A stretch of 23,691 nucleotides of DNA from a virus. A model generated the notes under the pieces. It did no database searches and was not told where the DNA came from. It worked only from the letters and a program-made list of their open reading frames with translations. Numbering within the stretch: the first letter of the stretch is position 1; every line of letters begins with the position of its first letter. The stretch lies in the IMG/VR virus record IMGVR_UViG_3300046454_000964, positions 1 through 23,691 of that record. One strand, 5' to 3'. Shown here one piece after another: positions 2,961 through 21,060 of the stretch. The position numbers and the translations under genes were made by a program.

Positions 2961-3317
2961 AACACATAGGGAACAGAGCTGCGCCTCGCGCACCATTCCC
3001 TTTCATGCTCGGCGGACGGGAAACCGCCGATGGCAACAGCGCACCTCGGAGGGTTACCGAGGGGTGGCGGCTTGTTCGCGCTTGTTCACGCCACCAGCGC
3101 TGTTGCCTCCCAATTCTCCGGTAGTCGTGCCGTAATGCGTCGCGCCTAATACCCAGGGGGCGCGACGTTCAGCGCGCGGCTACCGGAACACCTTTTGCGC
3201 ATGCTTGGCGGCAGCGCGCGGCGTCGAGTGTGCCTAGCACCTCCGCCCCATTGCTTGGCCCGTTCGTCTTGGACACACGCCGCCCATGGTGTCCTGGACG
3301 AGCGGGCCTTTTTATTT
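2961..3317 (+). ncRNA. Structured RNA / head-operon leader (about 350 nt)
   Basis: No ORF is supported here. A series of stems is seen: GGGAA/TTCCC enclosing TGCGC/GCGCA; TCGGCGG/CCGCCGA; an 11-bp stem 3032-3042 with 3097-3107 enclosing two hairpins (3044-3049 with 3057-3062, and GGTGGCG 3063-3069 with CGCCACC 3089-3095); CCGGTAG/CTACCGG enclosing CGTCGCGCC/GGCGCGACG; and the terminal terminator stem. In B the second inner hairpin is GGTAATCCG/CGGATTACC, changed on both sides so that pairing is kept, which argues for a selected RNA fold. It may be a free small RNA or a cis-acting leader deciding terminator readthrough. No Rfam family is recognised. Confidence 0.75.
3257..3317 (+). terminator. 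Intrinsic terminator just before head operon
   Basis: About 20-bp stem (3257-3276 with 3289-3308, few mismatches or G-U pairs) followed by TTTTTATTT. It stands only about 23 bp before the first head gene and no second motif lies between. Confidence 0.85.
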
Positions 3318-3339
3318 ATCTCGAAAAGGAACCGAGTCA

Positions 3340-3564
3340 ATGCCTAATCCGCCCACCGTGCCCAATCTCCGAGACCGCCTAGACGCCATTGTCGCGGCTG
3401 TTCTCGCCCGCATTGAGGCCGACGGCCCCGTATCGCCCGAGGGTGCCCCTCACGCCCTTCTAGGGCACCTTGCGTCTCTCGTCGACGCCGGTACAGCCCT
3501 ACGGGATACCAAGGCTTCGCGCTGGGCGATGAATGCCGCTCTAGAAACTCGGGGCGCTCGATGA
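3340..3564 (+). CDS. Head-operon small protein 1 (74 aa)
   Basis: ATG 3340 is preceded by AAAAGGA with 9-nt spacing; an in-frame start further upstream (3286) would lie inside the terminator and is rejected. The protein is soluble and mostly helical (NLRDRLDAIVAAVLARIEADGP, then LLGHLASLVDAGTALRDTKASRW). It is the first gene of a coupled operon with the capsid gene; its stop overlaps the next ATG (ATGA). The B homologue differs by only a few residues. A head-assembly, size-determining or scaffolding-related role is possible from position only; no family is recognised. Confidence 0.8.
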   Translation: MPNPPTVPNLRDRLDAIVAAVLARIEADGPVSPEGAPHALLGHLASLVDAGTALRDTKASRWAMNAALETRGAR

Positions 3565-3809
3565 CGCACGTTGAGAGCGCCGTAGCGCCAATTCCTCGTG
3601 AGCGTCGTATGAGGCTCGCCGCATCCCTCGCCGCGTGTGCCGACCCGCTGTTGCAGGCGCTCGGAATGGACATTTTGGCGATCAGCGCGCGCGAGGATGC
3701 CGAGTTTGCCGAGTTGGCCGAGGGCTTTGCCGCTGAGAGAGACCGAGAGAACGAGCTTCGGGCGGCAACCCTGCCCCCGATTCCCGCACCCACGAAGGAA
3801 ACTGAGTGA
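3561..3809 (+). CDS. Head-operon small protein 2 (82 aa)
   Basis: ATG 3561 overlaps the preceding TGA (ATGA) and its own TGA overlaps the capsid GTG (GTGA), so the three genes are translationally coupled. The sequence has an N-terminal basic stretch (PIPRERRMRLAASLAA), then an acidic helical part (REDAEFAELAEGFAAERDRENELRAA) with coiled-coil character and a Pro-rich tail. This profile is compatible with a small scaffold or capsid-binding protein, but that is inference. The B copy has the same length and is close in sequence. Confidence 0.8.
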   Translation: MTHVESAVAPIPRERRMRLAASLAACADPLLQALGMDILAISAREDAEFAELAEGFAAERDRENELRAATLPPIPAPTKETE

Positions 3810-5158
3810 ATAAGCGAGAAATGGTCGTCGATCTGCGCACTAAGCGTAGGGCCGAGCACGAACGCATGCGCACGCTGCTCGATAAGGCCACCGCTGAAAA
3901 GCGGTCGCTAAACGCCGCCGAGTCCGCCGAGTTTGACCGGCTAGAGGCCGACATTCGGGCCTTTGACGACCGCATCGAGGAACTCGAAATTCAGATTTCG
4001 GCCGACGACGCCGCCGCGTCTACGGCAGGCAAGTACGCACCGAACAGCAAGGGAAACACGCGAATGACCACGACCGTAAACGAGCCTGGCCCCTACCGCC
4101 CGGACGGTGAGCATTCCTGGTTTGGTGACATGTACGCCGCGCGGAGTGGCGATTATGCCGCCGCTGATCGTCTGCGCCGTTCTAGCGAGGCGCGGGGCGT
4201 TACCACTGGCGCTGGTTCCGGTGCCGCCTTTATCCCGCCGAAGTACCTGGTTGACCAGTGGATCCAGCTTGCCCGCCCGGGGCGTCCGACGGCGGATCTT
4301 CTGGCGCCAATGCCGATGCCGACGGGCACGAACACCGTGAGCATTCCGAAGATTGCGACCGGTTCGTCTGTCGCGTCGCAGGCAACGGAACTCACTGGGA
4401 TTTCGCAGACTGACATCACCTCGTCCAGTGTTACCGCGCCGGTCATCACCCTGGCTGGACAGCAGGTTGTCAGTGTGCAGGAGCTGGAAATGTCGCCCGG
4501 CGCTATCGACCAGGTCGTCATGAGCGACCTTGCCGCGCAGTACGGCCAGGTGCTCGACTCGCAGGTGCTCAACGGTGCCGGTACGGGCAACACGCTAAAG
4601 GGCCTGCTTAACCAGACCGGAATTACCTCGCTTACGTGGACTGCCGCCACTCCGGCCGTTACCGGCGCGAATGGTTTGTGGGGCAACCTGGCCAACCTGA
4701 TTTCCCAGATTCACGCTGCGCGATTCGCCCCGCCGACGGCCATCATTATGGCCCCGAGGCGCTGGGCCTGGATTGCCGCTGCCACGGATAACCAGTTCCG
4801 TCCGCTGGTGAATCCCGAGGCGTCCGGCGTCAACGTGTACGGCACGAATGGCGCCGTGGTTTCTGAGGGATACGTCGGCAAGATCATGGGTGTCCCTGTC
4901 TACACCGATGCGTCGATTCCGACCAACCTTGGTGCGGGCACGAACCAGGACGCGATCATCGTTCTCCGCGCCTCTGACGTGATGCTGTGGGAAGGCGTCG
5001 CCGGTGGCACTGAGCCGCGAATCGAAGCCTTCGAGCAGCCTTTCGCTGGTTCGCTCGGTGTGCTGTTCCGCGTGTACAGCTTCGCTGCAATGGCACTACG
5101 GTTCCCGGCAAGCGTCGGTGTGATAACCGGAACCGGTCTGGTGGCCCCGTCCTTCTAG
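3806..5158 (+). CDS. HK97-fold major capsid protein (450 aa, unit A type)
   Basis: GTG 3806 overlaps the previous stop; ATG at codon 6 is an alternative. Residues 1-70 form a charged helical/coiled-coil domain like the delta (scaffolding) domain of HK97-type capsid proteins. The rest shows family features: the LARPGRPTADLL segment, the (I/V)MAPRRWAW block, GKIMGVPVYTDASIPTN and a C-terminal AFEQPFAG ... FRVYSF region. The protein would form the icosahedral shell. No prohead protease, portal or terminase is encoded nearby, although delta-domain capsid proteins normally need a protease; a helper phage is the likely source. Of the first 70 residues, 64 match the B capsid protein, after which identity falls sharply. 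Encapsulin was considered and judged unlikely because of length and the N-terminal domain. Confidence 0.92.
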   Translation: MNKREMVVDLRTKRRAEHERMRTLLDKATAEKRSLNAAESAEFDRLEADIRAFDDRIEELEIQISADDAAASTAGKYAPNSKGNTRMTTTVNEPGPYRPDGEHSWFGDMYAARSGDYAAADRLRRSSEARGVTTGAGSGAAFIPPKYLVDQWIQLARPGRPTADLLAPMPMPTGTNTVSIPKIATGSSVASQATELTGISQTDITSSSVTAPVITLAGQQVVSVQELEMSPGAIDQVVMSDLAAQYGQVLDSQVLNGAGTGNTLKGLLNQTGITSLTWTAATPAVTGANGLWGNLANLISQIHAARFAPPTAIIMAPRRWAWIAAATDNQFRPLVNPEASGVNVYGTNGAVVSEGYVGKIMGVPVYTDASIPTNLGAGTNQDAIIVLRASDVMLWEGVAGGTEPRIEAFEQPFAGSLGVLFRVYSFAAMALRFPASVGVITGTGLVAPSF

Positions 5159-5186: not shown

Positions 5187-5209
5187 CACCTACTAGTCAA
5201 TAGTAGGTG
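5187..5209. repeat. Palindrome after capsid gene (degenerate form)
   Basis: CACCTACTA, gtcaa, TAGTAGGTG: 9-bp perfect arms, 28 bp after the capsid stop. It corresponds to the longer perfect palindrome of units B and C. No T-tract follows, so it is not a usual terminator. Confidence 0.7.
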
Positions 5210-5650
5210 GTGGCCGCCCTGGTTACCGCGACTATGGTTACCCGAGGCATGGTCGTCTGCGAAGCATTCCCGCCCCGCTGTGGTGGTTGGCGTACGGCGT
5301 ACATAGGGCGCTAGGTGTTGACCTCACAGCGGGGCATTCGTTGGCCCGTGCGCGCCGGTCTGCCGGTGGTTGGCACAGCGGGAATGTGCTGGGGAATTAC
5401 TCTTCGGCTCGCCGCTTGTGGTGTCGGTGCCGCGCACTTCCGCTGTGTGGTCGTCGTGCTCTGTGCCTTTGGTCTGCACAGCGAATGCCCCGCCTAGGTT
5501 CTTCCCTCACGGCGCAGCGCAGCGAAAGCCCGAGCGGCCTTACCCGTGGCTAATGATCCCTTTCATCGCGCGCTGTGCGTTCCCTGCCTCGCATTATCAC
5601 AGAGTGTAGCTACCAAATAGGACATTATGTGCAGTATGGGGCCGTATCAA
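5210..5650. promoter_or_regulatory. Conserved non-coding region with six 7-bp repeats
   Basis: CGCTGTG or its complement CACAGCG occurs at 5276-5282, 5325-5331, 5374-5380, 5441-5447, 5477-5483 and 5571-5577. Two of them belong to an 11-bp perfect inverted repeat (5272-5282 with 5325-5335). All six are kept in B although the capsid gene beside them has diverged. ORFs here are not kept between units: one is shifted by a 1-bp indel near 5237, another has a TAG at 5495-5497 in A. This looks like a cis-acting site such as packaging (cos/pac) or replication origin. Confidence 0.55.
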
Positions 5651-5801
5651 ATCTCTACGCGATTACATGCAGTGGACCCAAGCCCAGGGCAGGGATACAT
5701 GACTGCGAAATTTTGACCCGGGGGGTGTCGAGAATTTCCCCATTTTCAGCCGGCTGACCCCTTGAAAATGCCGTTTTCCTCCCTTTCTAAGGCAGTAGAA
5801 A
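5651..5801. other. Non-coding segment with central palindrome
   Basis: Contains the 10-bp palindrome CAGCCGGCTG (5747-5756) inside the inverted repeat ATTTTCA/TGAAAAT (5742-5748 with 5763-5769), and a weak GAAATT/AATTTC dyad around a G-run (about 5706-5738). The last 80 bp are almost unchanged in B. A 46-aa ORF found here in B is stopped after 5 codons in A (TGA 5714-5716). Confidence 0.5.
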
Positions 5802-5924
5802 TTGAAGAAAAAGATAGCGAAAATTCCGAGCGGAACTGACGCGACCCTACAGCGCGTACTAGCGCGGCTAGACCGAATGGAACGGGCCCTCCGCCCCTAC
5901 GTCGAGCGTGAGCGCGCCGCGTAA
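5802..5924 (+). CDS. Small basic helical protein (40 aa)
   Basis: Starts at TTG 5802 (an in-frame TAG at 5796-5798 excludes a longer form), with AAGG about 9 nt upstream. The product begins with a lysine-rich KKKIAKIPSG segment followed by an amphipathic helix (LQRVLARLDRMERALRPYVERERAA). The B copy is the same at protein level (CTC to CTG only). The stop TAA overlaps the first bases of the next shared motif. Length and charge suggest a nucleic-acid-binding or small accessory protein. The non-ATG start keeps confidence moderate. Confidence 0.5.
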   Translation: MKKKIAKIPSGTDATLQRVLARLDRMERALRPYVERERAA

Positions 5925-5939
5925 ACCGCTGCGCTCAAG
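5922..5939 (+). promoter_or_regulatory. Shared upstream motif, degenerate copy before DUF2637/HNH operon
   Basis: TAAACCGCTGCGCTCAAG: the core is changed at the TCTAG end. It is followed by a leader of about 65 nt and an intrinsic terminator before the first gene. Confidence 0.5.
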
Positions 5940-6003
5940 TGATGTTGACCAGGCAGGGTCGCACACACACCCCATAAACCCCCGGCGCTGATCACGTCGG
6001 GTT

Positions 6004-6059
6004 GCCCCTCGGTTGAGTTCACGCGGCTGCCTCCCGTGAACTCCCGAGGGGCTTTTTTT
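6004..6059 (+). terminator. Intrinsic terminator just before DUF2637-like gene
   Basis: Two stacked stems, GCCCCTCGG (6004-6012) with CCGAGGGGC (6044-6052) and GAGTTCACG (6015-6023) with CGTGAACTC (6035-6043), followed by seven T. It ends 20 bp before the start codon, repeating the motif-leader-terminator-gene layout of the head operon. Confidence 0.88.
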
Positions 6060-6079
6060 GTTTTTGGAGGCAGGAATTT

Positions 6080-6709
6080 ATGAAATCGCGTGACTTTCTA
6101 TCTTGGCTCGCCCTCGGCGCCGCCCTGGTACTGACAGCGAGCGCCGAATACGGCCTTGCGGTTGCGTGCGGCGCATCTAGGGCCGTCGCTGCCGCACTCC
6201 CTGTAGCCCTCGACGTGTATTCCGTCCGTGCGCTGCGGGCGCATCGTGAGGTTGCAACGTCTGTCGGTGCACTCATTGCCGTGAATGCGGTTGCGCACCT
6301 AGTGAGTGCGCATTTCCTCGCCGCATCCGTGCCGGTTGTCATCGGCGTATCCGCACTCGGCCCCCTCGTGCTATGGCGAGTGCACGCGTTGCGCGTTCCC
6401 GCGCCCGCTATAGCGCCTTTCGAGGCTGTGCCGGTATCTGCGCCCGTTGAATCGCCGACAGCGCCGCAGACGCCCGCTGGTGGCTTTCCTCCGCCGATTG
6501 TTGTCGACTGCGCCCCGGTTGCGTTGCATGTTGTGCCGGATGCGACAGATTGCGCCGACCCGCTGTTGTCGGATGCGCGCCGCCTCGACGTCGAGATACG
6601 CACTCGCACGGGTAAGGGTGCATCGCTGCGCACTCTGCAAGCGGAATTGCGCATCGGGCAGGCTCGCGCACAGCGCATTCGCGCCGCACTCGCCGAGGTG
6701 GCAGCGTGA
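6080..6709 (+). CDS. DUF2637-like membrane protein with C-terminal HTH (209 aa)
   Basis: ATG 6080 follows GGAGG. The N-terminal half has three to four predicted membrane segments (about residues 8-28, 32-48, 62-82 and 85-103), with the ALDVYSVRALRAHRE segment typical of DUF2637-like proteins of actinomycete plasmids and phages. A Pro/Ala-rich linker follows (about 110-165), then a short helix-turn-helix-like domain (TRTGKGASLRTLQAELRIGQARAQRIRAAL, about 173-205; an internal part is LRTLQAELRIGQARAQ). The family is often near transfer or replication genes; the exact role is unknown. Its stop overlaps the GTG of the HNH gene. The B homologue lacks seven residues in the linker. Confidence 0.8.
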   Translation: MKSRDFLSWLALGAALVLTASAEYGLAVACGASRAVAAALPVALDVYSVRALRAHREVATSVGALIAVNAVAHLVSAHFLAASVPVVIGVSALGPLVLWRVHALRVPAPAIAPFEAVPVSAPVESPTAPQTPAGGFPPPIVVDCAPVALHVVPDATDCADPLLSDARRLDVEIRTRTGKGASLRTLQAELRIGQARAQRIRAALAEVAA

Positions 6710-8098: not shown

Positions 8099-8141
8099 TA
8101 CTCGGTGCGCTGGATGCACGGGGCGCACGGAGTATGGAGTC

Positions 8142-8354
8142 ATGGAACCGGTGTACGAGTGGCAGCGAGTAGCCGCAGATATCGAACGGCGAATCAGCGC
8201 AGGGGAGGTACCGAAAGGCGGACGGCTGGAAAACGAGCGGGAGTTGGCGGACCACTATCGCGTGAGCGCGGGCACTGTCCGGCGCGCTGTGCGGGACCTG
8301 CGGGACCGAGGATTGGTCGCCACGCTGCCCGCAAAGGGCACCTACGTGCTGTGA
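8142..8354 (+). CDS. Compact GntR-type winged-helix regulator (70 aa)
   Basis: The whole protein is the GntR DNA-binding domain: the start (VAADIERRISAGEVPKGGRL), the ENERELADHYRVSAGTVRRA helix-turn-helix at about residues 31-50, and the wing ending in LPAKGTYVL. There is no effector-binding domain; such short forms are common in actinomycete plasmids and integrative elements. ATG 8142 has GGAG 4-8 nt upstream. It lies between the divergent minus-strand operon and the recombinase gene and probably controls one or both. The copy at 17072 is identical. Confidence 0.88.
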   Translation: MEPVYEWQRVAADIERRISAGEVPKGGRLENERELADHYRVSAGTVRRAVRDLRDRGLVATLPAKGTYVL

Positions 8355-8423
8355 CACACCGCATGTACGCTTAGGTCGGACACCCGCCCGGGTGGCCCCC
8401 TTAACCCTCCACGGAGGGACGGG

Positions 8424-8441
8424 GTAGCCGTTGCGCTCTAG
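8424..8441 (+). promoter_or_regulatory. Shared upstream motif, copy before recombinase
   Basis: GTAGCCGTTGCGCTCTAG ends only 8 bp before the recombinase ATG; the following AGGGA could serve as a weak RBS, or transcription may be nearly leaderless. Two dyads precede it: CACCCG/CGGGTG (about 8380) and CCCTCC/GGAGGG (about 8405). Confidence 0.6.
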
Positions 8442-8449
8442 GGACCCAC

Positions 8450-9991
8450 ATGCGACCTCTGACCTGCGTCATTTACGACCGACTCTCGCGCCTCCACGCC
8501 GAGGAAGCCCCAGACCACCGCATCGCTGCGTGCCGCGCGTACGCCGAACAGCGCGGGTGGAAGGTGGTGCACGTCGCCACCGACACGAACGTGAGCGGGG
8601 CAAGCAAGCTGGAGGACCGCCCCGGTATGCGCGAGGTGCTCGCATGGCTGCCGCGCGTCGATTTCGTGGTGGCCGCGAAGCTGGACCGGTATGCGCGTAG
8701 CGTGCTGGAATTTCAGCGGCTTATCGACGCCGCAAAGAGCATGCGCACCACGGTCGTGACCGTCGATGGCGTTGTGTCGCCGGAAAACGCGTCCATTATC
8801 ATCAACGTTCTCGCCGCTTTCGCCGAATACGAGCGAGACATGATTCAGTCCCGCATCACAGCGAGCAAAGAGCACTTCCGGCAGCGCGGCAACCACCTCG
8901 GCGGAATCGCGCCCTATGGCTACGCCGTAACCGGCCCCGTGAACGACAAGCGGTGGGGTATCGACGAGTCAGCGGCGGCGATTCTGCGGGATTGTGCCGA
9001 CCGGCTGATCAACCACGGGGCGTCGTTGACTGGCCTTGCCCGTGAGCTGAACGAGCGGGACGTATTGCCGCCCGCTGAACACGCACGGCAGCGCGACGGC
9101 CGAAAGCTGCGCGGCGGGATGTGGCACTCGACCACGCTACGGGACGTGCTCTATTCGCCCGCCGTTCGCGGATGGCTCGTAAAGGCCACCCCGGGCACCA
9201 AGCGTTCCGCCCTCACAAATCAGCCCGTCCTCGACGCGCAGGGCAACCCGCTGAATGCCGGGCCTGCCATCCTCGACGCCGAAACGTGGTCCGCCGTGCG
9301 CGCGATTATCGACGGTAAGGCGGTAGGTCGAGGCAAGACCCGCAACGGAAAGGCGTTGCTTTTGCACGTGGCGCGCTGCTCCGAATGCGACGGGCCGTTG
9401 TACCGGCAGCGCCGAGAGGTCAACGGCAAGGACTACAGCACCTACGTGTGCCGCGCCGGGGTCGGAAAGCGAGGCATCCACAAGCCGAACGTCGTCATTG
9501 CCCGGAATTTGGAAGACCTCGTGTCGACCGACTTCCTTAAGCGGTTTGGCGGGTTCGGCCGTAAGCGGTGGGTCGAGGCCGACGGCAGTGCGGTTCTCCA
9601 ACTCGCCGACGTCACAGCGCAGTTGGACAATCTCTCTGCCAGCATTCCGCACCTGCCCGCCGGTGGCCGGACGTGGCGCCTCGCTATGGACCAGGTGGCA
9701 GCGCTGGAAGCACGCGAGGCGGAATTGCGCGCCGAGGCCGAACACGCCGAGGGCCGTTGGGAAGACAGCGGAACGACCGTCGGCGACGAATGGGCACAGC
9801 GCGACGAGGAAGGACGCCGGGCCCTACTCGCCGACCTCGGCGCCCGTGTAGTGGTCCGTCCAGCAACGCCCGGTGCACCTAAGCGGTTCGACCCGTCGCG
9901 GGTGGCCGTCGAGTTCGAGGGTCCGGCGTGGTGGCGTAATGACCCGGCGGCGGGGGCGCGTACCGCCCTGGCAATGGATCTGAGCGACTAG
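8450..9991 (+). CDS. Large serine recombinase / integrase (513 aa)
   Basis: Residues 1-145 are the resolvase-type catalytic domain: YDRLS with R11 and catalytic S13, RPGM (57-60), KLDRYARS (77-84) and the helix with EYERDMIQSR (126-135). Residues about 150-270 are the recombinase DNA-binding domain beginning at GGIAPYGY (151-158). A zinc ribbon follows (C310, C313, C334) and a coiled-coil insertion (about 380-440), together the usual large serine integrase layout and length. The enzyme should integrate and excise the element at att sites; a directionality factor would be needed for excision and may be among the small proteins. ATG 8450 is the only sensible start. Confidence 0.96.
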   Translation: MRPLTCVIYDRLSRLHAEEAPDHRIAACRAYAEQRGWKVVHVATDTNVSGASKLEDRPGMREVLAWLPRVDFVVAAKLDRYARSVLEFQRLIDAAKSMRTTVVTVDGVVSPENASIIINVLAAFAEYERDMIQSRITASKEHFRQRGNHLGGIAPYGYAVTGPVNDKRWGIDESAAAILRDCADRLINHGASLTGLARELNERDVLPPAEHARQRDGRKLRGGMWHSTTLRDVLYSPAVRGWLVKATPGTKRSALTNQPVLDAQGNPLNAGPAILDAETWSAVRAIIDGKAVGRGKTRNGKALLLHVARCSECDGPLYRQRREVNGKDYSTYVCRAGVGKRGIHKPNVVIARNLEDLVSTDFLKRFGGFGRKRWVEADGSAVLQLADVTAQLDNLSASIPHLPAGGRTWRLAMDQVAALEAREAELRAEAEHAEGRWEDSGTTVGDEWAQRDEEGRRALLADLGARVVVRPATPGAPKRFDPSRVAVEFEGPAWWRNDPAAGARTALAMDLSD

Positions 9992-10012
9992 GCGCCCGTC
10001 TAAGCCCCTCGC

Positions 10013-10050
10013 AGCCCCGTTCGGCCCCCCTCGGTCGAGCGGGGCTTTTT
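10013..10050 (+). terminator. Terminator after recombinase gene (B)
   Basis: AGCCCCG (10013-10019) pairs with CGGGGCT (10040-10046), with further TCG/CGA pairing inside, followed by TTTTT. Confidence 0.8.
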
Positions 10051-10512
10051 CATGCCCGCAGACGGGCGCACAGAGCGTCAAGGCGGCATCCCTAAGTTAC
10101 CGGCTAGTAACATCTAGAGCCGTACCGGCGCCACCCCTCGGGAGGACGAGCCGCCCCTTGCCGCTGTGAGGCGCTGTAGGGCTCCCTATGCGCCCCGGAG
10201 GGTCGAGGTGGACCGAGGGCCTTAGGTCGTCCCCCGAGGCGCTCAGACGGGCGTACAGGGCGTAGAGGCTCTACAGCGCGAGGGGCTGACGCTGGCTGAC
10301 GTTATAAAAGTGCTCTTTCTCATTCCCACCCCCTCTAGCCTGCTACTTCTGACGACTGACGTTTTGACTATCAAACTCAGTATGTCTATAGAGACTCTTA
10401 AGGGATACCGGACAACACCTTTCATCCGTCAGTCGTCATGACGCCGCCCCGCGCCGCTGTTAAATGTGCCCCACGTCACATTTCCTTTTCTCTCCTTTTT
10501 CGCCCCTCCGCG

Positions 10513-10530
10513 TATGCCCCCGCGCTCTAG
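10513..10530 (+). promoter_or_regulatory. Shared upstream motif before 62-aa gene (B)
   Basis: TATGCCCCCGCGCTCTAG keeps the GCGCTCTAG core. It ends 41 bp before the ATG at 10572. Confidence 0.55.
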
Positions 10531-10571
10531 GGACACCAGCAAGGGGAACCAAGGAGAGAGGGTGAACCCTT

Positions 10572-10760
10572 ATGGCAGCCGAACGCCTGATAGCCGTCAT
10601 TGTGGCTTGGACCTGCGAAAAGTCCGCGCGAGGGCGCATGGCCCGGGACTTTGTGGACAACGTCGGCAACGACGCGCGCATGCAGGCGGAGCGGCTATCG
10701 CGACTCGCCATCTACGCCGAGCAGCAGATCGGGCGGACGGGCGGGCTCGCGTTCCATTAA
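10572..10760 (+). CDS. Conserved 62-aa protein, unknown function (B)
   Basis: Homologue of the 1286 gene with the same length and the same NVGNDARMQAERL core, but with many replacements elsewhere, so the two have diverged as proteins while staying intact. ATG 10572 follows an AAGGAGAGAGGG purine run at 10551-10562, 9 nt upstream of the ATG. It is flanked by a motif and a terminator and is thus a single-gene unit. It has one Cys (C16) absent from A. Confidence 0.8.
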   Translation: MAAERLIAVIVAWTCEKSARGRMARDFVDNVGNDARMQAERLSRLAIYAEQQIGRTGGLAFH

Positions 10761-10768
10761 GAGGTAAG

Positions 10769-10794
10769 GGCGCCATTTCGGCGCCTTTTCTTTT
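10769..10794 (+). terminator. Terminator after 62-aa gene (B)
   Basis: GGCGCC (10769-10774), 5-nt loop, GGCGCC (10780-10785), then TTTTCTTTT. Confidence 0.88.
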
Positions 10795-10812
10795 GGTCTC
10801 TTTCGTGACCAG

Positions 10813-10964
10813 CCGTCCCATCGAGGGACGGAACCCGGGTCTAGCCGTCCCATCGAGAGACGGAACCCATTCTCAACCGTCCCATTGATGGACGTAACCC
10901 GTTTTGATCCGTCCCCTAGCAAGACGGAACTAACGCCGATCCGTCCTCTCATGGGACGGAACCT
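10813..10964. repeat. Five dyad repeats at exact 32-bp spacing
   Basis: Units start at 10813, 10845, 10877, 10909 and 10941. Each is CCGTCCC, five variable bases, then GGGACGG-AACC or a close variant, followed by about 8 variable bases. 32 bp is close to three DNA turns, so the dyads face the same side. Changes in units 3 and 4 break pairing on one side without compensation, which favours a DNA-binding array (operator, iteron, partition or packaging site) over RNA hairpins. It sits between a terminator and the zinc-finger operon, which has no shared motif here. Absent from A. Confidence 0.85.
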
Positions 10965-10985
10965 AACTTGAATCGAGACAGCCGC

Positions 10986-11243
10986 ATGGACAAGAACGAG
11001 CTTATTCACCTACTCCGGGTCGCCGAGACAGCGCTATGGGACGCCGTCTTTAAGGGCGTGCCCTCCGCCGAGGCCGCCCACCGGGAAATCACGCGCGCCC
11101 TACACGATCTCACCGATACGGGTAGCTGCGGCAAGTGCGGCAAGACCCTCGCGCAGGCCGACACGGGCCGTCAACGCCTCTATTGCTCGGACAAGTGCCG
11201 TAAGGCAGCGCACCGGAAGCGTAATGCGCAGGTGGCAGCGTGA
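10986..11243 (+). CDS. One-finger Cys4 zinc protein (85 aa)
   Basis: ATG 10986 is preferred; a TTG at 10968 is an in-frame alternative and neither has a strong RBS. The first 45 residues are helical (LIHLLRVAETALWDAVFKG, EAAHREITRALHDL). The C-terminal part is a zinc finger CGKC ... YCSDKC with a basic tail (RKAAHRKRN). Lies directly behind the five dyad repeats, which probably control it. The stop overlaps the next GTG. Likely a nucleic-acid-binding regulator; exact target unknown. It replaces the three-finger gene of A. Confidence 0.75.
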   Translation: MDKNELIHLLRVAETALWDAVFKGVPSAEAAHREITRALHDLTDTGSCGKCGKTLAQADTGRQRLYCSDKCRKAAHRKRNAQVAA

Positions 11244-11539
11244 ACGCCCCGGGCATCGATGCCACGCAGGCCGAGCTAGCCGCGTGGTGTGCCTTTTGGC
11301 GCAGTGGCGCCTACGGCGCAAGCCCGAAACCCGATCGCAAATGCGAAACGTGCGGAACGGTAGTAACCGGCGGGCGTAGTTATTGCTCGAATTCCTGCCG
11401 GTGGCCGCCTAAGCCCCCGTGCGTGCGCTGTGGGAAGCCAAATAGGCGTACGGGCCTCGCCGGTCGCCGAATCGTCCCGTACTGCTCCTCGCGCTGCCGG
11501 TATGAGGCAAGCGCCACCACCCCACCTACTAGTCACTAG
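11240..11539 (+). CDS. Two-finger Cys4 zinc protein (99 aa)
   Basis: GTG 11240 overlaps the previous stop. Two fingers are seen: CETC ... YCSNSC (about residues 35-52) and CVRC ... YCSSRC (about 61-86), separated by a Pro-rich link. A short Trp-containing N-terminal helix (AELAAWCAFWRSG) precedes them. The C-terminal residues are encoded by the inverted repeat at 11523-11545, in a different frame from that used by the A gene at the same palindrome. Probably DNA- or RNA-binding; no named family. Confidence 0.75.
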   Translation: MNAPGIDATQAELAAWCAFWRSGAYGASPKPDRKCETCGTVVTGGRSYCSNSCRWPPKPPCVRCGKPNRRTGLAGRRIVPYCSSRCRYEASATTPPTSH

Positions 11540-11545
11540 GAGGTG
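11523..11545 (+). promoter_or_regulatory. Inverted repeat covering stop codon and RBS (B)
   Basis: Same 23-bp element as at 2710-2732, with the stop TAG of the two-finger gene at 11537-11539 and the RBS AGGAGGTG of the next gene inside it. Its sequence is kept although the upstream gene and reading frame differ from A. Confidence 0.65.
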
Positions 11546-11551
11546 CCCACC

Positions 11552-11740
11552 ATGGCAACCCCATTTGATGCTGGAACCTCGGCGCTGTTGGCGATCGAGG
11601 ATCACTTGCCCGTGCCCCGCAACCTCGCGGAAAGGAACACTGTCTTTCGTTCCCTGAACATAATTCGGGCGCTAATTCTCGGATATGAAACCCCCGAGCC
11701 GGCGGCCGTTACCGAATTGATGCCATCGGAAACCGACTAA
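11552..11740 (+). CDS. Conserved 62-aa protein (MATPF type) (B)
   Basis: Near-identical homologue of the 2739 gene; differences are concentrated in residues 6-18. ATG 11552 follows AGGAGGTG. The preserved RBS palindrome and protein indicate that this gene belongs to the fixed part of the element while the finger genes before it are exchanged. Function unknown. Confidence 0.8.
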   Translation: MATPFDAGTSALLAIEDHLPVPRNLAERNTVFRSLNIIRALILGYETPEPAAVTELMPSETD

Positions 11741-11754
11741 TGTCCAATTTGGGA

Positions 11755-11772
11755 TATGCCTTTGCGCTCTAG
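11755..11772 (+). promoter_or_regulatory. Shared upstream motif before structured RNA (B)
   Basis: TATGCCTTTGCGCTCTAG, followed as in A by AAACACATAGGG. Confidence 0.6.
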
Positions 11773-11773
11773 A

Positions 11774-12130
11774 AACACATAGGGAACAGAGCTGCGCCTC
11801 GCGCACCATTCCCCCAATGCTCGGCGGACGGGAACCCGCCGATGGCAACAGCGCACCTCGGAGGGTTAGAACCGAGGGGTAATCCGGTCGTGCTCCGACG
11901 GATTACCAGCGCTGTTGCCTCCCAATTCTTCCGGTAGTCGTGCCGTAATGCGTCGCGCCTAACGCCCAGGGGGCGCGACGTTCAGCGCGGCCACCGGAAC
12001 ACCTTTTGCGCATGCTTGGCGGCAGCGCGCGGCGTCGAGGGTGCCTCTAGCACCTCCGCCCCATTGCTTGGCCCGTTCGTCTTGGACACACGCCGCCCAT
12101 GGTGTCCTGGACGAGCGGGCCTTTTTATTT
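11774..12130 (+). ncRNA. Structured RNA / head-operon leader (B)
   Basis: Same fold as in A: 11-bp closing stem 11844-11854 with 11909-11919, first inner hairpin 11856-11861 with 11872-11877, second inner hairpin GGTAATCCG 11878-11886 with CGGATTACC 11899-11907. The last stem differs from A on both strands yet pairs fully and is 2 bp longer. The CGTCGCGCC/GGCGCGACG hairpin and the terminator are kept; the outer CCGGTAG stem has one mismatch here. Confidence 0.75.
12070..12130 (+). terminator. Intrinsic terminator just before head operon (B)
   Basis: Same sequence as at 3257-3317: a stem of about 20 bp with TTTTTATTT tail, 23 bp before the first head gene. Confidence 0.85.
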
Positions 12131-12152
12131 ATCTCGAAAAGGAACCGAGTCA

Positions 12153-12377
12153 ATGCCTAATCCGCCCACCGTGCCCAATCTTCGCGACCGGCTAGACGCC
12201 ATTGTCGCCGCTGTTCTCGCCCGCATTGAGGCCGACGGCCCCGTGACGCCCGAGGGTGGCCCTCACGCCCTCCTAGGCCACCTAGCGTCCCTCGTCGACG
12301 CCGGTACAGCCCTACGGGATACCAAGGCTTCCCGCTGGGCGCTGAACGCCGCTCTAGAAACTCGGGGCACCCGATGA
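12153..12377 (+). CDS. Head-operon small protein 1 (74 aa) (B)
   Basis: Close homologue of the 3340 gene with a handful of replacements (for example VTPEGG for VSPEGA). ATG 12153 follows AAAAGGA; the stop overlaps the next ATG. It remains conserved although the capsid core two genes downstream is strongly different, so it may contact the conserved N-terminal domain of the capsid protein rather than the shell; this is inference. Confidence 0.8.
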   Translation: MPNPPTVPNLRDRLDAIVAAVLARIEADGPVTPEGGPHALLGHLASLVDAGTALRDTKASRWALNAALETRGTR

Positions 12378-12622
12378 CGCACGTAGAGAGCGCGATAGCG
12401 CCAATTCCTCGTGACCGCCGAATGCGCCTCGCCGCCACCCTCGCCGCGTGTACTGACCCGCTGTTGAAGGCGCTCGGAATGGACATTCACGTCATCACAG
12501 CGCGGGAAGATGCGGAATTCGCGGAGCTGGCCGAGGGATTCGCGCAGGAGAGAGACCGAGAGAACGAGCTTCGGGCGGCAACCCTGCCCCCGATTCCCGC
12601 ACCCACGAAGGAAACTGAGTGA
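12374..12622 (+). CDS. Head-operon small protein 2 (82 aa) (B)
   Basis: Homologue of the 3561 gene, same length. The acidic REDAEFAELAEGF ... ERDRENELRAA half is the best conserved part; the middle around residue 40 (MDIHVIT versus MDILAIS) differs. Coupled on both sides by ATGA and GTGA overlaps. Confidence 0.8.
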   Translation: MTHVESAIAPIPRDRRMRLAATLAACTDPLLKALGMDIHVITAREDAEFAELAEGFAQERDRENELRAATLPPIPAPTKETE

Positions 12623-14037
12623 ATAAGCGAGAAATGGTCGCCGATCTGCGCGCTAAGCGTAGGGCCGAGCACGAGCACATGCGCGCGCTGGTCGATAAGG
12701 CCACCGCTGAAAAGCGGTCGCTAAACGCCGCCGAGTCCGCCGAATTCGACCGGCTAGAGGCCGACATTCGGGCTTTCGACGACCGCATCGAGGAACTCGG
12801 AATTCAGATTTCGGCCGACGACGCCGCCGCGCCTAAGGCAAGCCAGTACGCACCCCGCAGCAACGGAGACAAGATGATTGAGCGTCGCACCGACGTCATG
12901 CCCGGCACCTCCCGTATTCAGGTGACCCGCGCCGAGGAAATCTACCGGCCGGACGACAACAAGTCGTATTTCCGTGACCTCTACATGTCGCGCCATAAGG
13001 GCGACCGGGACGCTGCGGACCGGCTAGCGCGGAATAACAAGCTTCGGCTCGATGAGCGAAGCTCTGTCGGCATCAGCACCACGAACGGCGCCGGTGGCGA
13101 ATTCGTCCCGCCTCTGTGGATCGAGTCCGAGTTTATCAAGCTTGCCCGCCCGGGGCGCGTGACGGTCGACCTGACCAACGTTGCGCCGCTTCCCGCTGGC
13201 ACCGACACCATTAACCTGCCCAAGGTTTCCGGTGGTACCTCCGTCGCTGTTCAGTCGGCGCAGAACAGCGCGATTTCGAATACCGACATGCAGACCACTA
13301 GCGTCAGCTCGCCGGTTACGACCGTGGCAGGTGGCCAGACTGTAAGTTTGCAGCTCATCGAGCAGTCGCCGCTAAACGTCGATCAGGTGATCCTCGGCGA
13401 TCTCGCTGCCGCCTATGGCGCCACTTTCGATTCGCTCATCCTCAACGGTTCCGGCACTTCCGGGCAGCCGACCGGCATTATGAACGTCGCCGGTATCAAC
13501 GCCGTCGACTTCCCGACGCCGACCGGCACGCCGACTCAGGCGCAGATCGTAAGCGCGCTGTACAGCAAGCTTGCGAACGCGATTCAGCTTATTTCTACGA
13601 ATCGCTTCCTCCCGCCGGACACCATCATCATGAGCCCGCGTCGCTGGGCTTGGCTCACGGCGACTTCCGACGCCTCGAACCGTCCGCTTGTGGTGCCTCA
13701 CGCTAACGGCGCCTTCAATGCGGTTGGCGTTTCCGGTGCTGTGGCCGCCGAGGGTTACGTGGGCAGCCTGCTCGGTCTTCCCGTGTACGTCGACCCGCAG
13801 ATTCCGACCAACCTTGCGCTAGACGCGGGTACGGGTGAGGACGCGATTATCGTCGCGCGTATGGCCGATCTCTGGACCTATGAGTCTCACATCAGGGCGG
13901 AAGCTTTCGAGCAGACCTACGCGTCGAACATGAGCGTCTTTGTCCGGCTGTACAACTACGTCGGATTCATCGGCAACCGCTACCCGAAGTCGATTTCGGT
14001 CGTGACCGGTTCCGGTCTTACCGCGCCGACGTTCTAA
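12619..14037 (+). CDS. HK97-fold major capsid protein (472 aa, unit B type)
   Basis: GTG 12619 overlaps the upstream stop. Residues 1-70 (charged helical, delta-like) match the A capsid protein at 64 positions. From about residue 71 the sequences part: an extra basic segment at about 85-110, then a related but strongly diverged shell domain with IIMSPRRWAW (about 336-345), LLGLPVYVDPQIPTN (about 384-398) and a C-terminal RLYNYVGFIGNRYPKS region. The gene is intact and ends 7 bp before a 35-bp palindrome. As in A, no portal, protease or terminase accompanies it. Confidence 0.93.
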   Translation: MNKREMVADLRAKRRAEHEHMRALVDKATAEKRSLNAAESAEFDRLEADIRAFDDRIEELGIQISADDAAAPKASQYAPRSNGDKMIERRTDVMPGTSRIQVTRAEEIYRPDDNKSYFRDLYMSRHKGDRDAADRLARNNKLRLDERSSVGISTTNGAGGEFVPPLWIESEFIKLARPGRVTVDLTNVAPLPAGTDTINLPKVSGGTSVAVQSAQNSAISNTDMQTTSVSSPVTTVAGGQTVSLQLIEQSPLNVDQVILGDLAAAYGATFDSLILNGSGTSGQPTGIMNVAGINAVDFPTPTGTPTQAQIVSALYSKLANAIQLISTNRFLPPDTIIMSPRRWAWLTATSDASNRPLVVPHANGAFNAVGVSGAVAAEGYVGSLLGLPVYVDPQIPTNLALDAGTGEDAIIVARMADLWTYESHIRAEAFEQTYASNMSVFVRLYNYVGFIGNRYPKSISVVTGSGLTAPTF

Positions 14038-14044
14038 CAAGAGT

Positions 14045-14079
14045 GGCCACCACCTACTAGTGACTAGTAGGTGGTGGCC
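14045..14079. repeat. 35-bp perfect palindrome after capsid gene
   Basis: 16-bp perfect arms (14045-14060 and 14064-14079) around TGA; the core CACCTACTAG ... CTAGTAGGTG is the same as in the RBS palindrome at 11523. No T-tract follows. The longest perfect dyad in the window; it may be a protein-binding or DNA-processing site, or an mRNA 3' hairpin protecting the capsid transcript. Confidence 0.85.
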
Positions 14080-14560
14080 GCCCTGGTTACCGCGACCGTG
14101 GTTACTGGTGGGCATGGTCGTCTGCGAAGCATTCCCGCCCCGCTGTGGTGGTTGGCATACGGCGTACATAGGGCGCTAGGTGTTGACCTCACAGCGGGGC
14201 ATTCGTTGGCCCGTGCGCGCCGGTCTGCCGGTGGTTGGCACAGCGGGAATGTGCTGGGGAATTACTCCTCGGCTCGCCGCTTGTGGTGTCGGTGCCGCGC
14301 ATTTCCGCTGTGTGGTCGTCGTGCTCTGTGCCTTTGGTCTGCACAGCGAATGCCTCGCCGAGGTTCTTCCCTCACGGCGCAGCGCAGCGAAAGCCCGAGC
14401 GGCCTTACCCGTGGCTAATGGCCCTTTCATCGCGCGCTGTGCGTTCCCTACCTCGCATTATCACAGAGTGTAGCTACCAAATAGGACATTATGTGCAGTA
14501 GGGGGGCGTACTGAATCTCTGTCCGGAATGTCCGAATGGACCCAAGCCCAGGGCAGGGAC
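14080..14560. promoter_or_regulatory. Conserved non-coding region with six 7-bp repeats (B)
   Basis: CGCTGTG/CACAGCG at 14141, 14190, 14239, 14306, 14342 and 14435, matching all six sites of A with nearly the same spacing. Only scattered base changes separate A and B in this region. A 97-codon ORF (14180-14473) with hydrophobic stretches exists here but is interrupted in A, and a second ORF is frame-shifted between units, so neither is called a gene. Confidence 0.55.
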
Positions 14561-14562
14561 AC

Positions 14563-14703
14563 ATGACTGCGAAATTATGGGGTGGGGGGTGTCGAGAATT
14601 TCCGCATTTTCAGCCGGCTGACCCCTTGAAAATGCCGTTTTCCTTCCTTTCTAAGGCAGTAGAAATTGAAGAAAAAGATAGCGAAAATTCCGAGCGGAAC
14701 TGA
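14563..14703 (+). CDS. Possible 46-aa ORF (interrupted in unit A)
   Basis: ATG 14563 is preceded by CAGGG. The frame encodes a short Cys/Phe-containing start (GGGCREFPHFQPADPLKMP) and an acidic end (EIEEKDSENSERN). In A the same frame has TGA after five codons, although the DNA downstream is almost unchanged. It overlaps the 40-aa ORF by 38 nt in another frame. Either a non-essential peptide lost in A or a chance ORF over a conserved site. Confidence 0.25.
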   Translation: MTAKLWGGGCREFPHFQPADPLKMPFSFLSKAVEIEEKDSENSERN

Positions 14704-14788
14704 CGCGACCCTACAGCGCGTACTAGCGCGGCTAGACCGAATGGAACGGGCCCTGCGCCCCTACGTCGAGCGTGAGCGCGCCGCGTAA
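14666..14788 (+). CDS. Small basic helical protein (40 aa) (B)
   Basis: Same product as the 5802 ORF; the only DNA change in the coding part is synonymous (CTC to CTG). TTG start with AAGG upstream; the TAA stop forms the first bases of the next shared motif. Head-of-operon position before the DUF2637/HNH genes, but separated from them by motif and terminator. Confidence 0.5.
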   Translation: MKKKIAKIPSGTDATLQRVLARLDRMERALRPYVERERAA

Positions 14789-20684: not shown

Positions 20685-20702
20685 TATGCCTTTGCGCTCT
20701 AG
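20685..20702 (+). promoter_or_regulatory. Shared upstream motif before structured RNA (C)
   Basis: Copy of 11755-11772. Confidence 0.6.
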
Positions 20703-20703
20703 A

Positions 20704-21060
20704 AACACATAGGGAACAGAGCTGCGCCTCGCGCACCATTCCCCCAATGCTCGGCGGACGGGAACCCGCCGATGGCAACAGCGCACCTCGGAGGGTTAGA
20801 ACCGAGGGGTAATCCGGTCGTGCTCCGACGGATTACCAGCGCTGTTGCCTCCCAATTCTTCCGGTAGTCGTGCCGTAATGCGTCGCGCCTAACGCCCAGG
20901 GGGCGCGACGTTCAGCGCGGCCACCGGAACACCTTTTGCGCATGCTTGGCGGCAGCGCGCGGCGTCGAGGGTGCCTCTAGCACCTCCGCCCCATTGCTTG
21001 GCCCGTTCGTCTTGGACACACGCCGCCCATGGTGTCCTGGACGAGCGGGCCTTTTTATTT
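20704..21060 (+). ncRNA. Structured RNA / head-operon leader (C)
   Basis: Copy of 11774-12130, with the GGTAATCCG/CGGATTACC form of the covarying stem (20808-20816 with 20829-20837). Confidence 0.75.
21000..21060 (+). terminator. Intrinsic terminator just before head operon (C)
   Basis: Copy of 12070-12130. Confidence 0.85.

Follow-up and report, generated by a model that had tools for sequence, protein, structure and literature searches.

Organization of the element and its probable helpers

The window analyzed here, an IMG/VR virus contig of 23,691 bases, comprises about 2.65 tandem units of approximately 8.93 kb each. The unit encodes a serine integrase, a GntR-type regulator, zinc-finger ORFs and a 62-aa ORF, together with a structured RNA segment, ORF74, ORF82, an HK97-type capsid protein, a 209-aa protein (mem209) and an HNH/endonuclease VII-like protein. 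Across positions 8133-14757 (offset 8930), units B and C do not differ in a single base, and unit A is diverged from both and mosaic. With its upstream box and terminator, the RNA segment recurs on the plus strand in copy B (11755-12121; 123.6 bits with model R1) and in copy C (20685-21051); since copy C is identical to copy B, the window holds two alleles of the RNA, not three. Non-identical units of about 8.9 kb in tandem, mosaic between alleles, were observed in the window (1-23691) and in records L036 and L006, for which tandem integration and a concatemer with recombination are possible readings.

The relative L039 (9014 bases) presents a terminal overlap of 127 bases, indicative of a unit of about 8.9 kb that is circular or terminally redundant. 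L039 and L057 carry other serine integrases and different genes around a common backbone, a pattern of modular exchange, and small terminase genes were found only in these two relatives. Portal (PF04860) and large terminase (TerL_ATPase, PF03354) domains were not found in the window or in the L039 and L036 records, and the element revealed no recognized replication protein, large terminase or portal.

Two phage records of about 40 kb, G786 (L061) and G787 (L062), have three sites in common with the element: an 18-bp box, a 23-bp palindrome and a segment of about 100-170 bp upstream of terS. L061 encodes small and large terminases, portal, protease and capsid, and the L061 and L062 capsids share 62-63% identity with the unit B capsid. 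Judging from these sequences, G786 and G787 are probable helpers. With sites common to the element and the ~40-kb phage records, and with no portal or large terminase found, the element looks like a phage satellite, that is, a parasite of a larger phage, and its hosts are probably actinobacterial.

The box (TAANCNNTTGCGCTCTAG) has 11 matches in the window at up to 3 mismatches, all on the plus strand, compared to 0.36 expected, in agreement with the first-pass annotation, which had the segment start at a shared motif. Its sites precede the first 62-aa ORF, the zinc-finger operon, the RNA, mem209 and the integrase, ending in the latter case 8 nt upstream of the ATG. The box is also present in both phage records, in which a reversed control pattern has 0 matches; a promoter is the reading that suits it best. 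In the probable helpers, it also introduces a leader and a cluster of tRNA genes, beyond which come the genes for packaging and the head; after this late leader (L161 317-730, L162 274-754), two to four tRNA genes are predicted before the packaging genes begin.

The palindrome (CACCTACTAGTSACTAGTAGGTG) lies at 2710-2732 on the plus strand, where it overlaps the ribosome-binding site of the 62-aa ORF that immediately precedes the RNA, and again at 5187-5209, 11523-11545 and 14051-14073, flanking the head module (0 copies expected by chance). The two phage records contain 14 and 11 copies, and the palindrome is possibly an operator or an RNA hairpin. The third common site, at 5574-5747 and 14437-14594, matches the terS-upstream region of the two ~40-kb phages at 80-89% identity and is recognizable in Streptomyces sequence L133; its sequence makes it a candidate cos/pac site for packaging of the element.

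The segment, its terminator and the head operon

In copy A, the promoter-like box (TAAGCCATTGCGCTCTAG) occupies positions 2942-2959 of the plus strand, and an intrinsic-terminator hairpin (stem 3257-3308) with its U-run, from 3309, spans 3257-3313, so that the coordinates first assigned to the segment were right within a few bases. From the box, we place the 5' end of the transcript at about position 2969, which would give an RNA of about 345 bases (~2969 to ~3313). The strong terminator reported at the 3' end is borne out, with hairpin energies of -33 to -36 kcal/mol in the different alleles. Part of its stem is replaced in block when A/B are compared with the remaining alleles, yet pairing persists. 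The U-run is strong in A and B (TTTTT) and weaker in L036 and L009.

As the first-pass annotation had proposed, a head operon (3340-5158, plus strand) lies behind the segment. It consists of ORF74, ORF82 and a gene at 3806-5158 encoding an HK97-type major capsid protein (PF05065, E 1.5e-22; phrog_2263, E 2.3e-49). The Shine-Dalgarno sequence (SD; AAAAGG) and ATG of ORF74 fall at 3324-3342, and the distance from the terminator stem to the ATG is just 31 nt. An ordinary promoter would hardly fit in this gap, and a polymerase that transcribes ORF74 should therefore come through the terminator; a promoter inside ORF74 or ORF82 may instead drive the capsid gene.

A second unit with the same order (box, leader, strong terminator, ribosome-binding site and then gene) precedes the mem209/HNH operon on the plus strand at 5922-6082, with the box at 5922-5939, the terminator at 6004-6052 and the ATG at 6080. 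Two operons of the element thus sit directly behind their own box-led terminator. The loop of the mem209 terminator (CTGCCTCC) is complementary to the SD (GGAGGCAG) over 8 bp, a match reached by 0.3% of shuffled loops. In copy B of this unit both loop and SD are altered (CTGCCTCT/AGAGGCAG); across the stem and the loop-SD pairing, three pairs are altered on both sides, one of them in the loop-SD pairing. Its sequence suggests that the region at 6004-6082 is possibly a combined transcription and translation gate. Unlike at mem209, no pairing of the terminator loop with its own SD was found at the head operon.

Fold and allelic variation of the RNA

The multi-branched structured RNA described by the first-pass annotation is recovered in the predicted fold of the plus strand. 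It starts with P1 (GGGAA/UUCCC) and P1a (UGCGC/GCGCA) at 2969-3000, at the putative 5' end, followed by the P2 hairpin (UCGGCGG/CCGCCGA, 3009-3030) and by a three-way junction at 3032-3107 that is made up of the closing stem P3 (3032-3042/3097-3107), P3a (3044-3062) and P3b (3063-3095). The long P4 hairpin with an internal loop (3116-3187), the P5 (3197-3219) and P6 (3220-3247) hairpins and the 3' terminator hairpin complete the prediction. A larger stem closing P2 to P6 is not claimed, as the predicted folds differ between alleles.

The minimum free energy of the RNA is -185.4, compared to -147.9 +/- 5.8 for shuffled sequences (z -6.44; reached by 0 of 100 shuffles). Without the terminator, z is -5.05 (0 of 200 shuffles), and the fold z ranges from -4.7 to -5.9 across all five alleles. 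Among the 122 strand-windows of 288 nt in the element, the RNA ranks third by fold, indicating that it is exceptional, yet that other structured stretches exist. In B and L009, the minus strand folds equally well, and a strand call from fold energy was accordingly rejected as undecided; the plus strand is assigned on the basis of the box and the terminator. Reverse-strand matches of the covariance model (24 bits) correspond to the palindromic stem read from the opposite side, and were not retained as separate copies. Indels that are not in multiples of three and the lack of a conserved ORF count against a coding role. Elsewhere in the element, the leader of the zinc-finger operon (1785-1950) is also strongly structured (z -4.0) and contains GACAACCAC twice with GTGGTTGTC between, so that alternative pairings are possible, and in unit B about three copies (TRF) of a ~32-nt hairpin repeat (CCGTCCCATCGAGGGACGGAACCC) lie at 10810-10915, before a zinc-finger ORF.

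Five distinct alleles were available (A, B, L036/L050, L009 and L039, the last identical to L132), all of them from one family of satellite-like elements of about 8.9 kb, and any inference from covariation rests on these five closely related sequences. The closing stem (GGCAACAGCGC/GCGCTGTTGCC) is the same in A and B, as originally noted. The first inner hairpin, also described as unchanged, retains its stem (CCTCGG/CCGAGG) and differs in its loop (AGGGTTA versus AGGGTTAGAA). The second inner hairpin is indeed GGTGGCG/CGCCACC in A and GGTAATCCG/CGGATTACC in B; the A form is found in copy A alone, the remaining four alleles having that of B.

The compensatory change read from this comparison holds insofar as pairing is kept: P3b is 100% paired, with four pairs altered on both sides, a result matched by 0 of 500 shuffles and by slid controls with none or one. 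All four two-sided changes occur in allele A, so that they probably stem from one replacement event, and the change amounts to the replacement of a single block in just one allele of the five. When copy A was left out of the covariance model built for P2-P3, the model recovered A with 86 bits, aligning its different hairpin to P3b. P1, P1a, P2, P3 and P3a are invariant across the five alleles (P2 being 100% paired) and hence provide no evidence either way on pairing, and because most helix pairs never vary, an R-scape-type test is almost powerless here. In P4, two one-sided changes keep pairs (UA to UG and GC to GU), and three changes break pairs, alongside a 2-nt gap. Taken together, the structure of P3b and the terminator is well supported, and that of the other helices is plausible.

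The homologue collection suggested by the first-pass annotation returned, among the viral contigs searched, matches in the same element family only. Consistent with its failure to recognize an RNA family, a search of the window against Rfam 15 yielded 0 matches above the gathering cut-off, and at E<=5 only sub-threshold matches appeared, the best of them at 20.3 bits compared to the 70 needed. Searches for distant homologues of the RNA in annotated phages and plasmids elicited only chance-level pieces, and 396 genomes from the family of a Streptomyces relative gave only matches of 27-32 nt. The neighboring 62-aa ORF was absent from 397 genomes of the phylum of that relative, a weak result in a search that had no positive control. 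No homologue of the RNA was found in the probable helpers either. Their late leader and the RNA both contain CTCGGCGGAC, about equally far from the start; homology between the two was not accepted, given that 1.4-21% of shuffles reach the local score, and is suggestive at most. The RNA is thus new to Rfam and narrow in its known distribution, and its functional kind is already known.

Interpretation and relation to known systems

We read the segment, with confidence that is about evenly balanced, as a cis-acting, terminated 5' leader RNA of the satellite head operon, the operon being reached by readthrough. Ending as it does at a stop signal just before the capsid genes, the RNA probably helps gate those genes. 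The fold z values, the preserved junction and terminator, the spacing between box and P1 (which starts 8-9 nt past the box in all alleles) and the strand bias of the box all count for a leader, as do the layout at mem209 and the box-led late leader of the probable helpers. The lack of an antiterminator, the weak U-run in two alleles and the missing loop-SD pairing count against it. The candidate antiterminator, a pairing of GGCGGACGGG (P2 strand and loop) with the terminator sequence CCCGUUCGUC, was no better than shuffles; pairing of the leader with the 5' arm of the terminator is reached by a fraction of 0.51-0.98 of shuffled leaders, leaving an antiterminator unsupported. A search for leader-SD pairing at ORF74 was likewise abandoned, with no match conserved across all alleles.

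We infer transcription, its start site, termination efficiency, readthrough and the role of the body, and would order the events as follows. RNA polymerase would initiate about 9-10 nt downstream of the box at 2942-2959, produce about 290 nt of structured RNA and then reach the intrinsic terminator at 3257-3313, right before the ribosome-binding site of ORF74. By default a free RNA of about 345 nt would be released, and a polymerase passing the terminator would transcribe the capsid operon. The structured body would most likely be a cis-acting platform governing this passage, either through a direct effect on the polymerase or through a bound factor of satellite, helper or host origin. A bolder form of this proposal, in which the body represents a novel class of antiterminator RNA that acts in cis and, from a helper-type promoter and with no satellite protein factor, couples capsid expression to the late program of the helper, we regard as rather unlikely.

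A stand-alone, trans-acting small RNA that lies before the head operon by chance, and that interferes for instance with helper genes, could also possess a promoter-like box and a terminator of its own, and abundant non-coding RNAs have been described from satellites (PMC7567579). The terminator, however, leaves scant room for a separate promoter of the head operon, and neither a homologue in the probable helpers nor a nameable target supports such a role. Complementarity to the rest of the element does not exceed 13 nt, near chance, and antisense targets within the element were discarded on that ground, making a trans-acting RNA improbable in our view. Similarly doubtful is an ordinary long 5' leader with a non-regulatory body, in which the folds protect the message and an insulating terminator blocks readthrough from outside. 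The T1 terminator of Tn916 does sit just before a start codon (PMC11658703), other stretches of the element fold as strongly, and several box-led phage transcripts start with hairpins as well; yet the body is large, its P1-P3a stems are invariant, and an insulator behind its own promoter would silence its own operon unless passed.

The inverted repeats could, lastly, mimic RNA structure in what is in fact a DNA element, such as a packaging, replication or recombination site. Good folding on both strands fits this idea, as does the lack of a recognized replication protein, large terminase or portal in the element. A better candidate for a packaging site, common to the phages, nonetheless lies elsewhere (5574-5747 and 14437-14594), and the promoter-like box, the U-run and the position all suit an RNA, so that we give a DNA site very little credence.

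A terminated leader of the head operon would have a counterpart in the pR'-tR' region of phage lambda, where a terminated late leader (6S RNA) is read through with the aid of Q into the late operon. The order of promoter, short terminated leader and late or head operon fits both, the promoter and the need for readthrough being putative in the satellite, where the leader is of greater length and more highly structured. Among the main ORFs scanned with Pfam and PHROGs no Q-like match appeared, and a qut site was likewise not identified.

The canT/T1 region of Tn916 is also comparable, as a structured non-coding region of a mobile element located behind a promoter, with a terminator directly before the gene start (PMC11658703). 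The cis action of canT has been established by experiment (PMC11658703), whereas that of the satellite RNA is proposed. In the lambdoid phage HK022, put is a structured RNA that begins an operon with its genes located downstream of terminators; it measures about 70 nt, forms two hairpins and serves early genes (PMC9378689). The satellite RNA, with about 290 nt, helices P1-P6, a three-way junction and downstream head genes, falls outside the put class.

Among non-coding RNAs of phage satellites, the PLE transcript between inverted repeats and the regulatory RNAs of P4 and PhiR73 are the closest in kind (PMC7567579). The PLE and P4 RNAs are complementary to leaders of their own element (PMC7567579), whereas for the RNA described here no complementarity clearly beyond chance was found. 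In encoding its own major capsid protein, the element resembles capsid-forming PICIs (cf-PICIs) and the satellite or satellite-like MulchRoom and MiniFlayer (PMC10690885). Portal and large terminase, which were not found in the present element, are also encoded by the cf-PICIs and by the Streptomyces satellites (PMC10690885); of the set that defines cf-PICIs (capsid, portal, large and small terminase), the window holds the capsid only.

How satellites time their own late genes to those of the helper is understood in few systems, and this element offers a self-contained test case, with a promoter-like box also found in its probable helpers, one structured leader, one terminator and a capsid operon. 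Should readthrough be controlled by the leader body, a new RNA family would join the few known processive antiterminators, and would do so in a satellite-like element that encodes a capsid and whose hosts are probably actinobacterial. As an ordinary leader, the RNA would still be a strongly structured one that is missing from Rfam.
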